The position numbers and the translations under genes were made by a program. A stretch of DNA of 64,000 nucleotides from Gammaproteobacteria bacterium 13_2_20CM_66_19 (GTDB lineage: Bacteria; Pseudomonadota; Gammaproteobacteria; Steroidobacterales; Steroidobacteraceae). Positions 38,075 through 48,202 of the stretch are shown piece after piece. The notes beneath the pieces were generated by a model that did no database searches, had not been told where the DNA came from, and worked only from the letters and a program-made list of their open reading frames with translations. The stretch lies in contig MNCZ01000099.1 in assembly GCA_001914695.1 (NCBI GenBank), positions 24,833 through 88,832 of the forward strand. The letters run 5' to 3'. Numbering within the stretch: position 1 is the first letter of the stretch; every line of letters starts with the position of its first letter.

Positions 38075-38344
38075 TCAGCGGCGAAGCCCGAGTCGCTCGA
38101 CGAGCTCCTGGTACTTCTGGGGTTGCGTGGCTCTGAGGTAATCGAGGAGCTTGCGCCGCTGGTTCACGAGCTTCACGAGCCCGCGGCGCGAGGCGTGGTC
38201 ACGCTTGTGCGCGGTGAAGTGCTCGCCGAGTCCGTTGATGCGCTCGGAGAGCAGTGCCACCTGAACTTCCGGTGAGCCGGTGTCGGCCGGTCCGCGGCGG
38301 AACTGCGCGAGGATTCCGCCCTTTTTCTCGCTGGTTAAGGCCAT
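38075..38344 (-). CDS. rpsO: 30S ribosomal protein S15
   Basis: An 89-residue S15, the universal length. It begins [17 protein letters not shown] and contains [19 protein letters not shown] and [25 protein letters not shown], the 16S rRNA-binding surface. It normally follows truB directly; here truB is about 9 kb upstream, beyond plus-strand signalling genes, and rpsO has its own candidate promoter. Confidence 0.97.
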
Positions 38345-38395
38345 GGCGCGATCGTCCTAACTAATTGTCTCAAGAGCCCTTTTAGCAAGCGCGGG

Positions 38396-38425
38396 ATTCT
38401 ACCCGCCCGTAGCGTGCCGCTACAA
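38396..38425 (-). promoter_or_regulatory. Candidate promoter for rpsO-pnp
   Basis: On the minus strand TTGTAG (38420-38425) and TAGAAT (38396-38401) are separated by 18 nt, giving a start about 45 nt upstream of the rpsO ATG. With truB displaced, such a promoter is required for rpsO and pnp. Confidence 0.6.
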
Positions 38426-38457
38426 GCCGCACGCGATGCGTTCCGTTACGCGGCCGT

Positions 38458-38490
38458 CCGATGAGCGGCGCAACGGTGTGCGCTCATCGG
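38458..38490. repeat. Perfect 10-bp inverted repeat upstream of rpsO
   Basis: CCGATGAGCG and CGCTCATCGG flank a 13-nt spacer. No T-run follows on either strand. It lies in the 400-nt gap between rpsO and the plus-strand EAL-like gene; the rest of this gap holds the two candidate promoters and a second inverted repeat but no gene. It may be a protein-binding site or an insertion footprint. Confidence 0.6.
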
Positions 38491-38579
38491 CGAGCCGCAC
38501 GGGACGACTCACCTGCCATGCGGCGCGAGAATCGCGGGGGCGGCGTGCGATTCCGAAGTGCGCCGCGCCCTGTCCGCGG

Positions 38580-38608
38580 TTTGCATCAGGCGCCGCTCAC
38601 GACATAAT
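38580..38608 (+). promoter_or_regulatory. Weak candidate promoter for the degenerate EAL gene
   Basis: TTTGCA (38580-38585) and CATAAT (38603-38608) are 17 nt apart, about 137 nt upstream of the ATG at 38745. The -10 matches five of six consensus bases. Confidence 0.35.
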
Positions 38609-38700
38609 GCGGCCGACAAATCAGCGACTTACGAATCCTGTCTCAGAGCGCACTGCGCTGGCGCGACGTGCATCTACGACTCCCCGGCCGGCGCGTCCGT

Positions 38701-38729
38701 AGGATCGCACGCAGTTCTGTCGCGATCCT
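38701..38729. repeat. 8-bp inverted repeat just upstream of the degenerate EAL gene
   Basis: AGGATCGC and GCGATCCT flank a 13-nt spacer, ending 15 nt before the ATG at 38745. As RNA it would form a hairpin next to the ribosome site. The spacer length equals that of the repeat at 38458-38490. Confidence 0.5.
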
Positions 38730-38744
38730 GAAACGTCTGCCCGC

Positions 38745-40367
38745 ATGAGCGCTGATGCATTGATCGAAGGACTGCCCGATCTCGTCGTCCTGATCCGACG
38801 GGACGGCCTGGTGCTGGAATGCGGCGGAGGACACGGCGTGCCGGGCCTTCGCTGCCGCTTGGATGCGGCCGGCAAGCGGATCGAGAGTCTCTGGCCGGCG
38901 CCCGTCGCGGAGTTCCTGAAGCTGCTCATGCGCCGGTCGCTGGCGCTGCGCACCACGGCGGAAGCGCGCTTGGAGCACGACGGCATCGCCTATGAGGCAC
39001 GCGCCAGCGCCCGGGGTCCGGAGCGCGCGCTGTGCATCATCCGGCAGGCCTCGGCAAGCTCGCGGGACGACTCGCTCGAGGGGAGCGACGAGCGGCCCCG
39101 TCCCCAGCTCGACCGCCGCGGCTTCCTCAGACGTTGCAAGGAGTCGATGGCGATGGCGGCGCTGCGCGAGCGGCCGCTCGCGGTCGCCGTCATCCAGCTC
39201 GACGGCATCAGCGACATCGCGCAGATCATCGCCACCAAGGTCTCCGAGCAGATCATGAGCACGGCGATCCTGCGTCTGCCGGCCAAATCGGACGAGCGGG
39301 ACGGTAAGCCCTGGTGGTACCTCGGGCAGCTGAGCGAGAGCCTGCTCGCGCTGGTGCTCGAGAGTGCGGATCGCGAAGCGATCGGCGAGTGCGTGGCGGG
39401 GTTGTCCGCGAGCCTGCGCGAGCCGATTGCGATCGGCGGCGCGGAGTTCCATCTGACGCCGTACGCGGGCGTCGCCATCCTCGGCCAGGACGCCTCCACG
39501 CCGAAGCTGCTCCTCGATCATGCGCGCGCGGCGGCGACCGAAGCGCGCCGCCGCGGCTCATCCGAAGTGTGCTTCTTCACGGATACGATGCGGCTCGAGT
39601 CGCTGGCGCGCCTCGACATCGCCCGCGAGATGCGCGAGGCGATCGCCAATCGCGACATCCGCCTGCGCTACGTCGGCCGGCACGATCTCGAGACCGGGCG
39701 CCTCACCGCCTGGGTCGGGTACCTGCGCTGGCTGCACCCGCTGCGCGGTGAGATCCGGCCGGCCGAGTTTCTGCGGGTCGCCGAGACGACGGGCCTTGCG
39801 GCGCAGCTGTCCCGGGCCGTCCTCGGTTGCCTCAAGGAGGATTTCGCATCGCTCGCCGCCGCTGCCGACCCGGACGTGCGGGTGTCCTTCGGAGCGCTGC
39901 GCCATCACGTGCTGCACGAGGATTTTGCGGCCGACATCGGCCGCTTCCTGGCGGAAGGGGCGCTGCCGCCCGAGCGGCTCGAGCTGCGCATCGCCGAGCG
40001 CGCGCTCGTCACCCGCGACCCGCTCGACCTTCACGACCTCGCGCGGCTCGGCGCCCGAGTGGTCGTCGATGAGGTCGCCCGCGGCATGGGCTCACTCGAG
40101 CTGCTGGCACGCGCGCCGCTCTGGGGCCTGCAGCTCGATCGCGCCTGGGTCACGGGGCTGCGCCGCGAGACCCAGTCACGCAAGGTGTGCCAGGCCGGCA
40201 TCGCGGTCGCCCAGGCGTTCGGGCTGACTCCGATCGCCAGCGGCGTCGACGATTCCGGGCAGCGCGAAGCGCTCCTGGCGCTCGGCTGCCGCTACGGCAG
40301 CGGCGACCTGTTCCGCGATGCCGCACCTGACATAACAGCGCCCGCGCGCGCGGCCGTCGGAGCCTGA
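38745..40367 (+). CDS. PAS/GGDEF/EAL-like protein with degenerate catalytic motifs
   Basis: A 540-residue soluble protein. Residues 1-100 resemble a PAS sensor (GLPDLVVLIRRDGLVLECGGG). Residues 120-280 have the GGDEF-domain outline, but the GGDEF loop reads GQLSES. Residues 290-530 follow the EAL fold (FLRVAETTGLAAQLSRAVL, then LQLDRAWVTGL), yet AWV replaces EAL at 322-324, LRIAER replaces the ExTE-type Glu motif, and DEV replaces DDF at 442-444. Neither synthesis nor hydrolysis of cyclic-di-GMP is expected. It may instead bind the nucleotide or a partner. It is the first of the plus-strand signalling genes inserted between truB and rpsO. Confidence 0.8.
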   Translation: MSADALIEGLPDLVVLIRRDGLVLECGGGHGVPGLRCRLDAAGKRIESLWPAPVAEFLKLLMRRSLALRTTAEARLEHDGIAYEARASARGPERALCIIRQASASSRDDSLEGSDERPRPQLDRRGFLRRCKESMAMAALRERPLAVAVIQLDGISDIAQIIATKVSEQIMSTAILRLPAKSDERDGKPWWYLGQLSESLLALVLESADREAIGECVAGLSASLREPIAIGGAEFHLTPYAGVAILGQDASTPKLLLDHARAAATEARRRGSSEVCFFTDTMRLESLARLDIAREMREAIANRDIRLRYVGRHDLETGRLTAWVGYLRWLHPLRGEIRPAEFLRVAETTGLAAQLSRAVLGCLKEDFASLAAAADPDVRVSFGALRHHVLHEDFAADIGRFLAEGALPPERLELRIAERALVTRDPLDLHDLARLGARVVVDEVARGMGSLELLARAPLWGLQLDRAWVTGLRRETQSRKVCQAGIAVAQAFGLTPIASGVDDSGQREALLALGCRYGSGDLFRDAAPDITAPARAAVGA

Positions 40368-40373
40368 CCGGCC

Positions 40374-40410
40374 CTCCCGGGCCTCACCGACCCTCTCCCG
40401 GGCCTCACCG
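40374..40410. repeat. Short tandem direct repeat
   Basis: Two perfect copies of CTCCCGGGCCTCACCG (40374-40389 and 40395-40410), with a 21-nt period, lie immediately after the degenerate EAL gene. Confidence 0.7.
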
Positions 40411-40530
40411 GTCGCGCCGCGCTGGAGGCGCGCGTGAGTCTGTCTGTGTCGCGGTCTCGCCGGCGATTTGACAGGCCTCTTATGCGAAGCACGTCACACG
40501 CCGCTGCCGGCGATGCGAGTCCGGTTCCGC

Positions 40531-40546
40531 TGTGACCGGCGTCACT
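40531..40546. promoter_or_regulatory. CRP/Clp-like binding site
   Basis: TGTGA, six bases, then TCACT matches nine of ten positions of the CRP-family consensus TGTGA-N6-TCACA. It lies 64 nt upstream of the small ORF at 40595 and 227 nt upstream of the hybrid kinase. In Xanthomonas the CRP homologue Clp is controlled by cyclic-di-GMP. The link to this locus is inference. Confidence 0.5.
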
Positions 40547-40594
40547 TCCCGACGACAATGCCGCCCCAAGAAACCCACTAAGAGACTCCGGGAT

Positions 40595-40678
40595 ATGCGA
40601 ACTCTGCGCGCCAGCGCCTCGATACTGATCGCGCTGCTGTCGATGACGGCGCTCGCCGCTGCGGCACCCAACCAGTAA
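40595..40678 (+). CDS. 27-residue signal-peptide-like small ORF
   Basis: The ATG at 40595 opens MRTLRASASILIALLSMTA and continues LAAAAPNQ to TAA. It has two basic residues, a hydrophobic core and an Ala-rich end with an AxA-type cleavage site, leaving only a few residues after cleavage. AAGAG lies about 12 nt upstream. It could be an exported micropeptide, a membrane microprotein, a leader peptide, or a truncated relic of a secreted protein. It sits in the 390-nt gap before the hybrid kinase. No family is recognised. Confidence 0.4.
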   Translation: MRTLRASASILIALLSMTALAAAAPNQ

Positions 40679-40757
40679 GCCGACTGTGACGCAGCTCTCG
40701 TAAAGCGGACCGGCAGCAGCAAGCCTGACTTCGGTCAACACATCCGGAACCGCCCCC

Positions 40758-45250
<4,493 letters not shown>

Positions 45251-45254
<4 letters not shown>

Positions 45255-47011
45255 GCGGCACGGTCGCAACGACAGGCGTCGCGATCATCGCCGACGACGA
45301 GGATCTCGGCCGCCTGCTGCTCGCCGAGGCGGTCAGCGCGAGCGGACTCACGCCGCTGGCCTTCGACAACGGCGGGGCCGCACTCGAGGCCGCCCGCTCG
45401 CAGGATGTCGCGATCGTGCTCCTCGACGTCGACATGCCGGGCCTCGACGGCTACTCGGTGTGCCGCCGGCTGCGCTCGGAGCCGCGCTTCGCCACCGTGC
45501 CGATCGTGATGGTGACCGGGCACGAGGACGCCGAGGCCATCGGCCGCGCCTTTGACGCCGGAGCCACGGACTTCATCAGCAAGCCGGTCAACTGGGCCCT
45601 GCTGCCGCGACGCCTCGATTACATCCTGCGCAATGCCGCCGCCGCCGAGCGTATCGAGCGTCTCGCGTACTTCGACCCGCTCACCGGGCTGCCGAACCGC
45701 CAGTGCTGCATCGAGACCGCCGAGCGGCTCGTGCCCGAGGCGGCGCACCTTCAGGAAGCCGTGGCGATCGTGTACCTCGACCTCAACAGCTTCAAGCGGG
45801 TGAACGACACCTTCGGCCACTCGGTGGGAGATGCGGTTCTGCGTAACGTCGCCGGGAAGCTCAGCGGCGTGCTCGAGGGCTTCAGGGCCGAGAACCAGCA
45901 CCTGTCGCTCTCGCGCTTCGGCGGCGACGAGTTCGTGATCCTGCTGCGGCATCCCGCGGCGCGCGCGCGCGCCATCTCGATCGCGGAAGCCTGCGCGGCG
46001 GCGTTCAAGGAGCCGATTCTCTACGAGGGGCTGGAGTTCTACCCGGCGCCCAGCGTCGGGCTCGCCGTCTATCCGGACGACGGCGGCGACGTCGTCACCG
46101 TGCTCAAGCACGCCGACACCGCCATGTACCAGGCCAAGAGCGGCGCCGCCGAGTCGGTTGCCGTCTACACGCCTGCGATGAGCAGCCGGTTGAGCAACTG
46201 GCTCGACCTCGAGGCGCGGCTGCGCCGCGCTGTGGCCGAGGATCGCCTGCGCCTGGTGTATCAGCCCAAATTCCGTCTGCGGGACAATCAACTGGTGGGC
46301 GTCGAAGCGCTGCTGCGCTGGTGCGACTCGGAGTACGGCGATATCCCGCCGACGCGCTTCATCGAGATCGCCGAGGACAGCGGCCTGATCCTCGACATCG
46401 GCAGCTGGGTGGTGCGCGCGGTGTGCAGGCAGCTGCGCGCGTGGCTAGACCGCGGCTTCACCGTGCCGGTGGCCATCAACGTCTCGGGCAAGGACCTGCT
46501 GCATGGCGACCCGGCGCGCGTCATCGCCGAGGAGACGGCGGCGGCCATGATTCCTGCGTCTCTGATCGAGGTGGAGATCACCGAATCGGTGCTGATCAAG
46601 GACTCCGCCGCCGGGCGCACCGCGCTCAAACGGCTGCGCGAGCTCGGCTGCCGGGTCGCGCTCGATGACTTCGGCACCGGCTATTCCTCGCTCGCCTACA
46701 TCACCCGCTTTCCGCCCGACCGCATCAAGATCGACAAGGCGTTCGTGCACGACGTGGACACTGCCGCGGGCAACGCCGCCATCGCCAACGCCATCCTGTC
46801 GCTGGCCGAGAGCCTCGGGGTCACCGTGACGGCCGAGGGGATCGAGCGTCCCGGGCAGCTCGAGTGGCTGCGCTCGCGAGGCTGTCAGGAGGCGCAGGGG
46901 TTTCTCCTCGCGCGTCCGCTTTCGCCCGCGGATCTCGAGCGGCAGTTCCTCGCGCCCGCGAAGCCCACCGCGGAGGCGGAAACGCTTGCGCCGCGCTCGG
47001 GCCGGTTCTAG
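45251..47011 (+). CDS. Response regulator with GGDEF and EAL domains
   Basis: A 586-residue protein: a receiver (DDEDLGR, phosphoacceptor Asp59 in LLDVDMPGLDG, SKPV), a GGDEF domain with intact GGDEF at 224-228, and an EAL domain with intact GVEALLRW (Glu352), EITES, DDFGTGYSSL, KIDKAF and AEGIE. Both cyclic-di-GMP synthesis and hydrolysis are possible. No RxxD inhibitory site is seen in the expected place before GGDEF. The ATG overlaps the kinase stop, so kinase and regulator are translationally coupled. Confidence 0.93.
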
Positions 47012-47036
47012 CATCGGGATGAGGTACCTCCGATGC
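47011..47036 (+). promoter_or_regulatory. Hairpin over the ribosome site and start of the small lipoprotein gene
   Basis: GCATCGG (47011-47017) pairs with CCGATGC (47030-47036), and the loop holds GATGAGGTACCT. The right arm contains the ATG at 47033 and the loop contains the GAGG ribosome site. GAGGTACCTC (47021-47030) is also a perfect palindrome. Control of translation is inferred. Confidence 0.45.
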
Positions 47037-47317
47037 TCAAGACCCTCCTCACCGGCGCCTTCCTGCTCCTCACGCTCATGGCATGCGCCACGGTCGCCCC
47101 CACCCCGGCGCGCGATGTGGCGAGAGCCGCTTCGCTCGCCGCGGCCCCCCGGCGGGACTGCGTTTCCGACACGGCGACCCGGATTCCGGTGAAGGCCGAC
47201 GAGTGCGTTGGATTCGGCCAGACGTACACCCAGAACGACCTCCAGCGCACCGGCCAGCGCGAGCTGGGACCGGCGCTGCGGATGCTCGATCCCTCGCTGA
47301 CCGTGCACGGCCGCTGA
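47033..47317 (+). CDS. Small putative lipoprotein
   Basis: A 94-residue protein with a lipoprotein signal (MLKTLLTGAFLLLTLMAC, lipobox LMAC). The mature part has two more Cys (RRDCVSD and DECVGFGQTY), possibly a disulfide, and ends in a polar helix. No family is recognised. It lies 21 nt after the REC-GGDEF-EAL gene on the same strand and is convergent with truB (3 nt apart), so it closes the signalling block. Confidence 0.6.
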   Translation: MLKTLLTGAFLLLTLMACATVAPTPARDVARAASLAAAPRRDCVSDTATRIPVKADECVGFGQTYTQNDLQRTGQRELGPALRMLDPSLTVHGR

Positions 47318-47320
47318 GGC

Positions 47321-48202
47321 TCAAATCCCGGGGTTGAGAAGCCGGCGCGGTCGCACCGCGCGCCCGTCCGCCTCTCCGAGACCGAGGAACACGCCGCTGT
47401 CGTCGTACAGGCGCACCCGCGCGGGCGCTTCGGGAACCTGCGCCGGCACGCTCTGCCCCTGGAGGAGCCGGCGCGCCTCGTCCGCTTCGAGGCGCACCGC
47501 GGCGAGATGCGCGAGCGGCCAGTCGGGCGGCAGCAGCGCGGGCCAGGCTCCCCGGGCCCGCACCTCTGCCAGCGACTCGAGCGTCTGCATCGGCTCGGCT
47601 GCGAAAGGCTCGACGTAGAGTCTTCTCAGCGCGCTCACGTGGCCGCAGGTACCGAGAGCCTGCGCCAGGTCCTCGGCCAGCGCGCGAACGTAGGTGCCCT
47701 TCGAGCACAGTATCTCGAGCTCGAGGCCCGCGGTCTCGAGCCTGAGCAGCTCGAGCTCGAACAGCTCCACCTCGCGCGCCGCGCGCTCGACGGTCACCCC
47801 TGAGCGTGCGAGCCGGTAGAGAGGCTGTCCGGCGCGCTTCAGCGCCGAGTACATCGGTGGAGTCTGCTTCTGGCGGCCGCGGAACTGCGCCAGCACCGCC
47901 TCGACCGCGCCGCGCTCGAGCGGCGGCACGGGCGCGCTCGCGGTGACCGCGCCTTCCGCGTCGCCGGTCGCGGTGCGCTCGCCGAGGCTCAGCGTGAAGC
48001 GATAGCGCTTACGGGCGGCGAGGATCTCGCCGGCGATCTTGGTGGCCTCGCCGAGGCAAAGCGGCAGCATGCCGGTGGCGAGCGGGTCGAGGCTTCCGAC
48101 GTGGCCCGCCTTCGGACGCGAGAGGAGCGCCCGAACGCGCTGCAGTGCTGCATTCGACGTGAGGCCCCGCGGCTTGTCGAGCAGCAGGATGCCGCTGGGC
48201 AT
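47321..48202 (-). CDS. truB: tRNA pseudouridine(55) synthase
   Basis: A 293-residue TruB that makes the near-universal pseudouridine 55 of tRNA. It begins MPSGILLLDKPRGLTSNAAL. The catalytic Asp is in GHVGSLDPLATGMLPLCLGEATK, and the PUA-like C-terminal part ends with YDDSGVFLGLGEAD. It follows rbfA by 5 nt. Downstream, where rpsO is expected, convergent signalling genes begin. Confidence 0.96.
   Translation of the reverse strand: MPSGILLLDKPRGLTSNAALQRVRALLSRPKAGHVGSLDPLATGMLPLCLGEATKIAGEILAARKRYRFTLSLGERTATGDAEGAVTASAPVPPLERGAVEAVLAQFRGRQKQTPPMYSALKRAGQPLYRLARSGVTVERAAREVELFELELLRLETAGLELEILCSKGTYVRALAEDLAQALGTCGHVSALRRLYVEPFAAEPMQTLESLAEVRARGAWPALLPPDWPLAHLAAVRLEADEARRLLQGQSVPAQVPEAPARVRLYDDSGVFLGLGEADGRAVRPRRLLNPGI

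Follow-up and report, generated by a model that had tools for sequence, protein, structure and literature searches.

A plus-strand gene at positions 38745-40367 of the 64-kb window (the whole stretch of DNA analyzed here) encodes a soluble PAS-GGDEF-EAL protein of 540 residues, recognized from its translation, Pfam matches, an AlphaFold2 model and its orthologues, in which the active sites of both enzymatic domains have been replaced. We consider it, with a probability of roughly 0.58, to be a pseudoenzyme that acts by protein contact, its leading candidate partner being a REC-GGDEF-EAL response regulator encoded nearby. By sequence, the gene encodes a real, conserved pseudoenzyme, and its family is a new one in a class already known, that of degenerate GGDEF-EAL proteins: both sites are dead, and fold and gene are kept by selection.

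An open frame that retains the fold

The frame starts with ATG and is open over 540 codons, as a sequence-only reading of this DNA had claimed. Its N-terminal domain (residues 3-103; 38751-39053, plus strand) is PAS-like, as indicated by the PAS topology of the AlphaFold2 model and by PAS_4 matches in six of 12 orthologues (best 7e-5). There follow a degenerate GGDEF domain at residues 124-272 (39114-39560, plus strand; Pfam PF00990, E 5.8e-6) and a degenerate EAL domain at residues 294-523 (39624-40313, plus strand; PF00563, E 1.6e-37, 129.6 bits where the cut-off is 31.3). The model, built from a 45-row alignment with a mean pLDDT of 88.7 and a pTM of 0.63, has its predicted secondary structure in the expected order of PAS, GGDEF and EAL. 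The same reading held that fold-defining segments persist and proposed structure prediction as a check; Pfam matches, model and fold search all agree with it, the closest solved structures being the GGDEF-EAL proteins PaMorA (4rnh), RmcA (PA0575; 5m3c) and RbdA (PA0861; 5xgd). Many solved single EAL domains superpose at about 2 Å (rmsd 2.0-2.9 Å), and both profile and barrel fold place the protein in the EAL superfamily. Hydropathy reveals no membrane segment outside the fold core, in which a hydrophobic strand lies near residue 145.

Replacement of both active sites

Motif register was set by alignment to intact relatives and to the neighboring REC-GGDEF-EAL protein (45251-47011). In the GGDEF domain, SESLL stands in place of GGDEF at residues 197-201 (39333-39347, plus strand), the metal Asp is Q151, and the RxxD I-site is not present, its positions being occupied by K188 and W191. 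The I-site is common, although not universal, among GGDEF diguanylate cyclases. The features of an active cyclase—GG(D/E)EF, metal Asp and RxxD—are thus all missing. The loop had earlier been read as GQLSES, which starts at residue 194, three residues early; the loss of the motif stands, the register does not. The same applies to the EAL motif, previously given as AWV, which begins two residues upstream of the aligned VGY at residues 324-326 (39714-39722, plus strand). The metal Glu of this motif is absent from 33 of 33 family members, being Val in 29, Gln in three and Cys in one.

The remainder of the EAL site is equally altered on the plus strand. The metal and substrate Asn is replaced by G383 (39891-39893; Gly in 30/33), and the metal Glu of ExTES by Arg in RIAE at residues 415-418 (39987-39998), in which the second Glu is kept and both R415 and E418 occur in all 33 members. 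DDF has become DEV at residues 442-444 (40068-40076), with E443 in 33/33, and the catalytic Lys is Q463 (40131-40133), again in 33/33. SGVD replaces EGxE at residues 499-502 (40239-40250), the first Glu being lost in all members and D502 present in 32/32; S519 (40299-40301) takes the place of the catalytic Gln, which no member whose sequence covers this position retains; and the QP motif reads V310/G311. The alignment bears out the DEV replacement and the replaced Glu motif (as RIAER, residues 415-419) of the sequence-only reading, and its broader claim that every catalytic motif is replaced can be extended by the changes at Asn (G383), Lys (Q463), EGxE (SGVD), QP (VG) and Gln (S519), which it had not listed.

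An active EAL phosphodiesterase would not be expected to carry V324, G383, R415, D442/E443, Q463, S499 and S519. In the phosphodiesterase ProE, alanine at the equivalents of V324, G383, R415, E443, Q463, S499 and S519 leaves very low or no activity (PMC7290235). Because the motif residues are replaced and because of these alanine data, catalysis by either domain is very unlikely. The first Asp of DDF (D442), the second Glu of ExTES (E418), D465 and G520 are kept, as is R328, and some highly divergent GGDEF domains have other activities (PMC10333796), so one might suppose that a residual or altered enzyme activity survives the loss of the motifs; with every ProE-critical position changed, however, we regard this as scarcely credible.

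Graded loss within one bacterial order

The degenerate protein is found in 32 of 217 genomes from the window's own taxonomic family and in one genome (G311) from another family of the same order, so that the gene is known from at least 33 species, in which the frame and the same replacements are kept; to judge from these orthologues, the loss of the motifs is beyond chance. Spread outside the order was considered and rejected, since at E<=1e-90 the scans of 369 class-wide and 399 phylum-wide genomes returned no match except the window's own.

In a maximum-likelihood tree that was built without the motif columns and midpoint-rooted, the 33 degenerate proteins form one clade with 100/99 support. 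Outside it lie proteins from G051, G268, G377, G380, G388, G392, G295 and others, in which the EAL motifs are intact and GGDEF is intact or partly changed. The scan of the 217 family genomes also recovered three intermediate forms, from G105-G107 (loci L114, L113 and L112), in which GGDEF has been lost (SDDVI) and EAL is intact except for the catalytic Lys, now Met or Leu. Relatives thus form a graded series, from intact, through an eroded GGDEF with a nearly intact EAL, to the loss of both. Descent of the degenerate protein from an active PAS-GGDEF-EAL protein is well documented by this series, and the simplest order would be that GGDEF was lost first and EAL afterwards, once, an order based on both the motif states and the midpoint-rooted tree. 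G010 has, as its second copy (L124), another degenerate GGDEF-EAL paralogue, whose substitutions differ (VATPRW, GNFGNV) and which adjoins a Reg_prop-GGDEF-like gene and a subtilase gene; this is perhaps an independent loss of the motifs.

A conserved pseudo-site under purifying selection

Pairwise dN/dS for the degenerate gene (Nei-Gojobori), a check that the sequence-only reading had suggested, lies at 0.11-0.29, well below 1, and its orthologues are neither riddled with stops nor relaxed, their frames being open in 33 species. Flags for internal stops in four of them (G191, G194, G197 and G231) apparently reflect frames that end naturally a few residues short of the model's C-terminus. The claim that selection has kept the fold and not the enzyme is thereby upheld by the structure model, the fold search, the dN/dS values and the invariance of the replacement residues. 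A decaying duplicate under relaxed selection, on its way out, would also have lost all its motifs, and within the window's clade the gene does have a higher dN/dS (0.27-0.29) than the partner regulator (0.12-0.21), together with lower pairwise protein identity; the corresponding values are 0.24-0.29 for the neighboring kinase and 0.09-0.10 for pnp. Against decay stand the open frames, long-term retention across many genera, a dN/dS similar to that of the kinase and the invariant residues of the old site. We find decay very improbable for the gene in the window, and for the family as a whole it is already refuted; on these sequence comparisons the gene is not decaying, and purifying selection continues.

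The replacements at the former active site rank among the most conserved columns of the degenerate family. Several of these columns—R415, E443, Q463, D502, H388, R507 and D521—are family-specific, Y326 is present in 32/33 members and R446 in 31/33, and the old active site is, on this evidence from the alignment, a conserved pseudo-site and not a drifting one. R415, at a former metal-ligand position, could pair with D442/E443. Such conservation invites the proposal that the pocket has been re-purposed, with R415, D442, E443, R446, Q463, D502 and H388 binding another small molecule, and YdiV, a degenerate EAL protein, retains a groove in which phosphate and glycerol were bound (PMC3510510). The same pattern would, however, result from salt bridges stabilizing the barrel after the loss of metal binding, and the candidate site has no known ligand; we therefore think a re-purposed pocket improbable beside action by protein contact.

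A co-inherited kinase and an intact regulator

The degenerate gene is followed on the plus strand by a conserved neighbor (Pfam, synteny), a Reg_prop/Y_Y_Y hybrid histidine kinase with HisKA, HATPase, REC and Hpt domains (40758-45254), and then by the REC-GGDEF-EAL response regulator (45251-47011), identified by Pfam, its motif table and co-occurrence, all of whose motifs are intact and whose gene overlaps that of the kinase by 4 bases. Many relatives have the same arrangement. Of the 23 family genomes with a close orthologue of the regulator, 21 also carry the degenerate gene, compared with 32/217 overall (Fisher 3.5e-19, a value that ignores kinship and includes several genomes that are incomplete MAGs); in G061, one of the two exceptions that have the regulator only, the contig ends inside the kinase. 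Wherever they can be read, the regulator orthologues keep GGDEF, EAL and the other motifs, apart from a few single-residue changes such as DDV in G012. The earlier description of the degenerate gene as lying next to an active GGDEF-EAL regulator thus finds support in a co-inherited partner predicted to be active from its intact motifs.

In at least six genomes (G007, G011, G071, G076, G096 and G099), however, the degenerate gene is present with no close regulator orthologue detected. The degenerate protein would therefore be useful without the regulator there, or have another partner, and it is because of these genomes that we do not rate the partner model higher. In a subclade comprising G071, G076, G007, G011, G012 and G067, the degenerate gene lies near a gene for a PLP-dependent Cys/Met enzyme, with a TonB-dependent receptor gene nearby in most, and the regulator is undetected in four of the six.

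Among early branches of the degenerate clade and outside it, the neighboring gene often encodes one Reg_prop-GGDEF protein, with a subtilase nearby, and the association is therefore older than the catalytic loss. In G010, the Reg_prop sensor is naturally fused to GGDEF-EAL (L046:2209-6450), bypassing kinase and receiver, a fusion which suggests that kinase and regulator belong to one pathway. Where sensor genes have been reorganized in these ways, the degenerate or ancestral gene still adjoins them.

A subtilase neighbor and its probable relic

Most relatives have a fourth gene, for an S8 subtilase with a signal peptide and a propeptide-like N-terminus; it either separates the degenerate gene from the kinase gene or lies beside them. 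The subtilase persists at L044:7504-9555, L101:7652-9589, L104:10630-12495 and about 27 other loci, those of catalytically intact relatives included, and the closest subtilases, in 16 genomes, occur only alongside the degenerate gene. It is missing at the window's site; the window's genome does encode a more distant subtilase at another place (G000:C61). A signal-peptide-like ORF of 27 codons (40595-40678, plus strand), reading MRTLRASASILIALLSMTALAAAAPNQ before its stop, lies between the genes for the degenerate protein and the kinase, at the place where relatives have the start of their subtilase. Its similarity to subtilase signal peptides is weak (44% over 27 aa, E 0.036), and it is probably the relic of the signal peptide of a deleted subtilase.

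At 38075-48202 of the window, the signaling cassette breaks the usual truB-rpsO-pnp order. In the window, G034 and G062, the cassette has truB on one side and rpsO-pnp on the other, and the regulator of G061 also adjoins truB. In G005, G032 and G001, which have no cassette there, truB is only ~0.5-0.8 kb from pnp, and the cassette was therefore probably inserted between truB and rpsO-pnp in one clade. A functional tie to pnp/rpsO was rejected as a general explanation, the position being shared by only the window, G034 and G062 among the loci read. Also dropped was the motif TCAC-N-A[CT]AATGC, which in the window precedes both the degenerate gene and the relic/kinase, its two occurrences; it was devised after the fact and is found upstream of the degenerate gene in no orthologue. 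Rfam and tRNA scans of the 64-kb window returned nothing, and our search of the literature on Reg_prop, GGDEF and subtilase together did not find this gene neighborhood described.

How a dead GGDEF-EAL protein might act

Homo- and hetero-dimers are known for folds of the GGDEF and EAL kinds. In E. coli, a catalytically dead GGDEF domain is able to bind a live one (PMC5635695), and both YdiV and E. coli CsrD work through contact and independently of c-di-GMP (PMC3510510; PMC10333796). By analogy, the PAS domain would take the input, the dead GGDEF and EAL folds would dock on a partner protein, and the degenerate protein may thereby tune the activity or target of the REC-GGDEF-EAL regulator, which is encoded two genes downstream and would sit below the Reg_prop phosphorelay. 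We infer function by protein contact, with PAS input and with this regulator as the first candidate partner. In the original form of the module, the output may, more speculatively, include control of the adjacent secreted subtilase.

The main competing role is that of a LapD/FimX-type receptor, whose dead EAL domain would still bind c-di-GMP and signal to a partner. Receptors of the FimX/LapD type still bind c-di-GMP, and ExLxR is described as the determinant of this binding (PMC10333796). Points in common are not lacking: the substrate-contacting Arg, R328, is present in 25/33 members, solved EAL and LapD domains have a matching fold, an intact c-di-GMP enzyme is encoded next door, and in LapD itself the EAL Glu position is not acidic, the motif reading KVL and being followed by R450 (PMC3032553). 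Yet ExLxR reads VxYxR in the degenerate protein, and its Arg is Q, S, H, K, N or C in eight members; the metal/substrate Asn is Gly, the Glu of EGxE is Ser, Thr or Ala, the Gln of QP is lost, and the GGDEF domain offers no I-site at K188/W191. With ExLxR and the Asn and Glu ligands lost, the Arg at only 25/33 and the I-site missing, canonical c-di-GMP sensing by the degenerate protein is predicted to be unlikely, and we judge a receptor of this type to be an outside prospect. Where a receptor or scaffold role had been suggested from the sequence, then, the scaffold part—contact with a protein for which the regulator is a candidate only—fits better, and the receptor part fares poorly, its c-di-GMP ligand residues being lost.

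A more ambitious synthesis, which we offer as speculative and rather unlikely, is that in this pseudo-GGDEF-EAL family the metal site has become a new conserved charged site, with Arg for the metal Glu near the kept Asp/Glu, and that the protein is the non-catalytic subunit of a four-part module made up of Reg_prop phosphorelay, live REC-GGDEF-EAL, dead PAS-GGDEF-EAL and secreted subtilase. Were this true, the module would link an outside signal to c-di-GMP and extracellular proteolysis.

Comparison with known systems

The nearest solved sequences and folds, RmcA (5m3c), PaMorA (4rnh) and RbdA (5xgd), share their domain order with the degenerate protein. They are known as active enzymes, whereas the degenerate protein has lost the catalytic residues. 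FimX, a REC-PAS-GGDEF-EAL receptor, has PAS and degenerate GGDEF and EAL domains in common with it; the window's protein, however, has no REC domain, reads VxYxR instead of ExLxR and has not kept the binding residues, and its match to FimX is weak (4j40, E 1.8e-8, versus 1.7e-36 for RmcA 5m3c), which places it outside that group. LapD is likewise a degenerate dual-domain protein and is paired with a protease, LapG, much as relatives of the window's gene have an adjacent protease gene. By contrast, the window's protein has no transmembrane or HAMP part, its c-di-GMP ligands are lost, the protease of its relatives is an S8 subtilase and not LapG, and it reaches 12.6 bits with the NCBIfam LapD model, whose cut-off is 1020.

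CsrD/MshH (GAPES4-HAMP-dGGDEF-dEAL) also has two dead domains and, in E. coli, works independently of c-di-GMP (PMC10333796). It nevertheless has GAPES4 and HAMP parts and different substitutions, and with 12.1 bits against an NCBIfam cut-off of 663 the degenerate protein is not a CsrD. In the enterobacterial YdiV/RflP (STM1344), the EAL fold is similarly kept with the catalytic residues mostly replaced (8/10 in YdiV), and the protein binds no c-di-GMP and works through protein contact (PMC3510510). YdiV has only the EAL domain and binds FlhD, whereas the degenerate protein adds PAS and pseudo-GGDEF domains. The best reading is that the degenerate protein is nearer to the logic of YdiV and CsrD than to that of LapD and FimX. 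Degenerate GGDEF-EAL proteins are common and individually hard to interpret; here, a single bacterial order offers ancestral forms that are still intact, an intermediate that is half dead and a clade that is fully dead, has invariant residues of its own and mostly stays beside a live enzyme. This small natural set of proteins makes the fate of a c-di-GMP enzyme fold after the loss of both activities testable.
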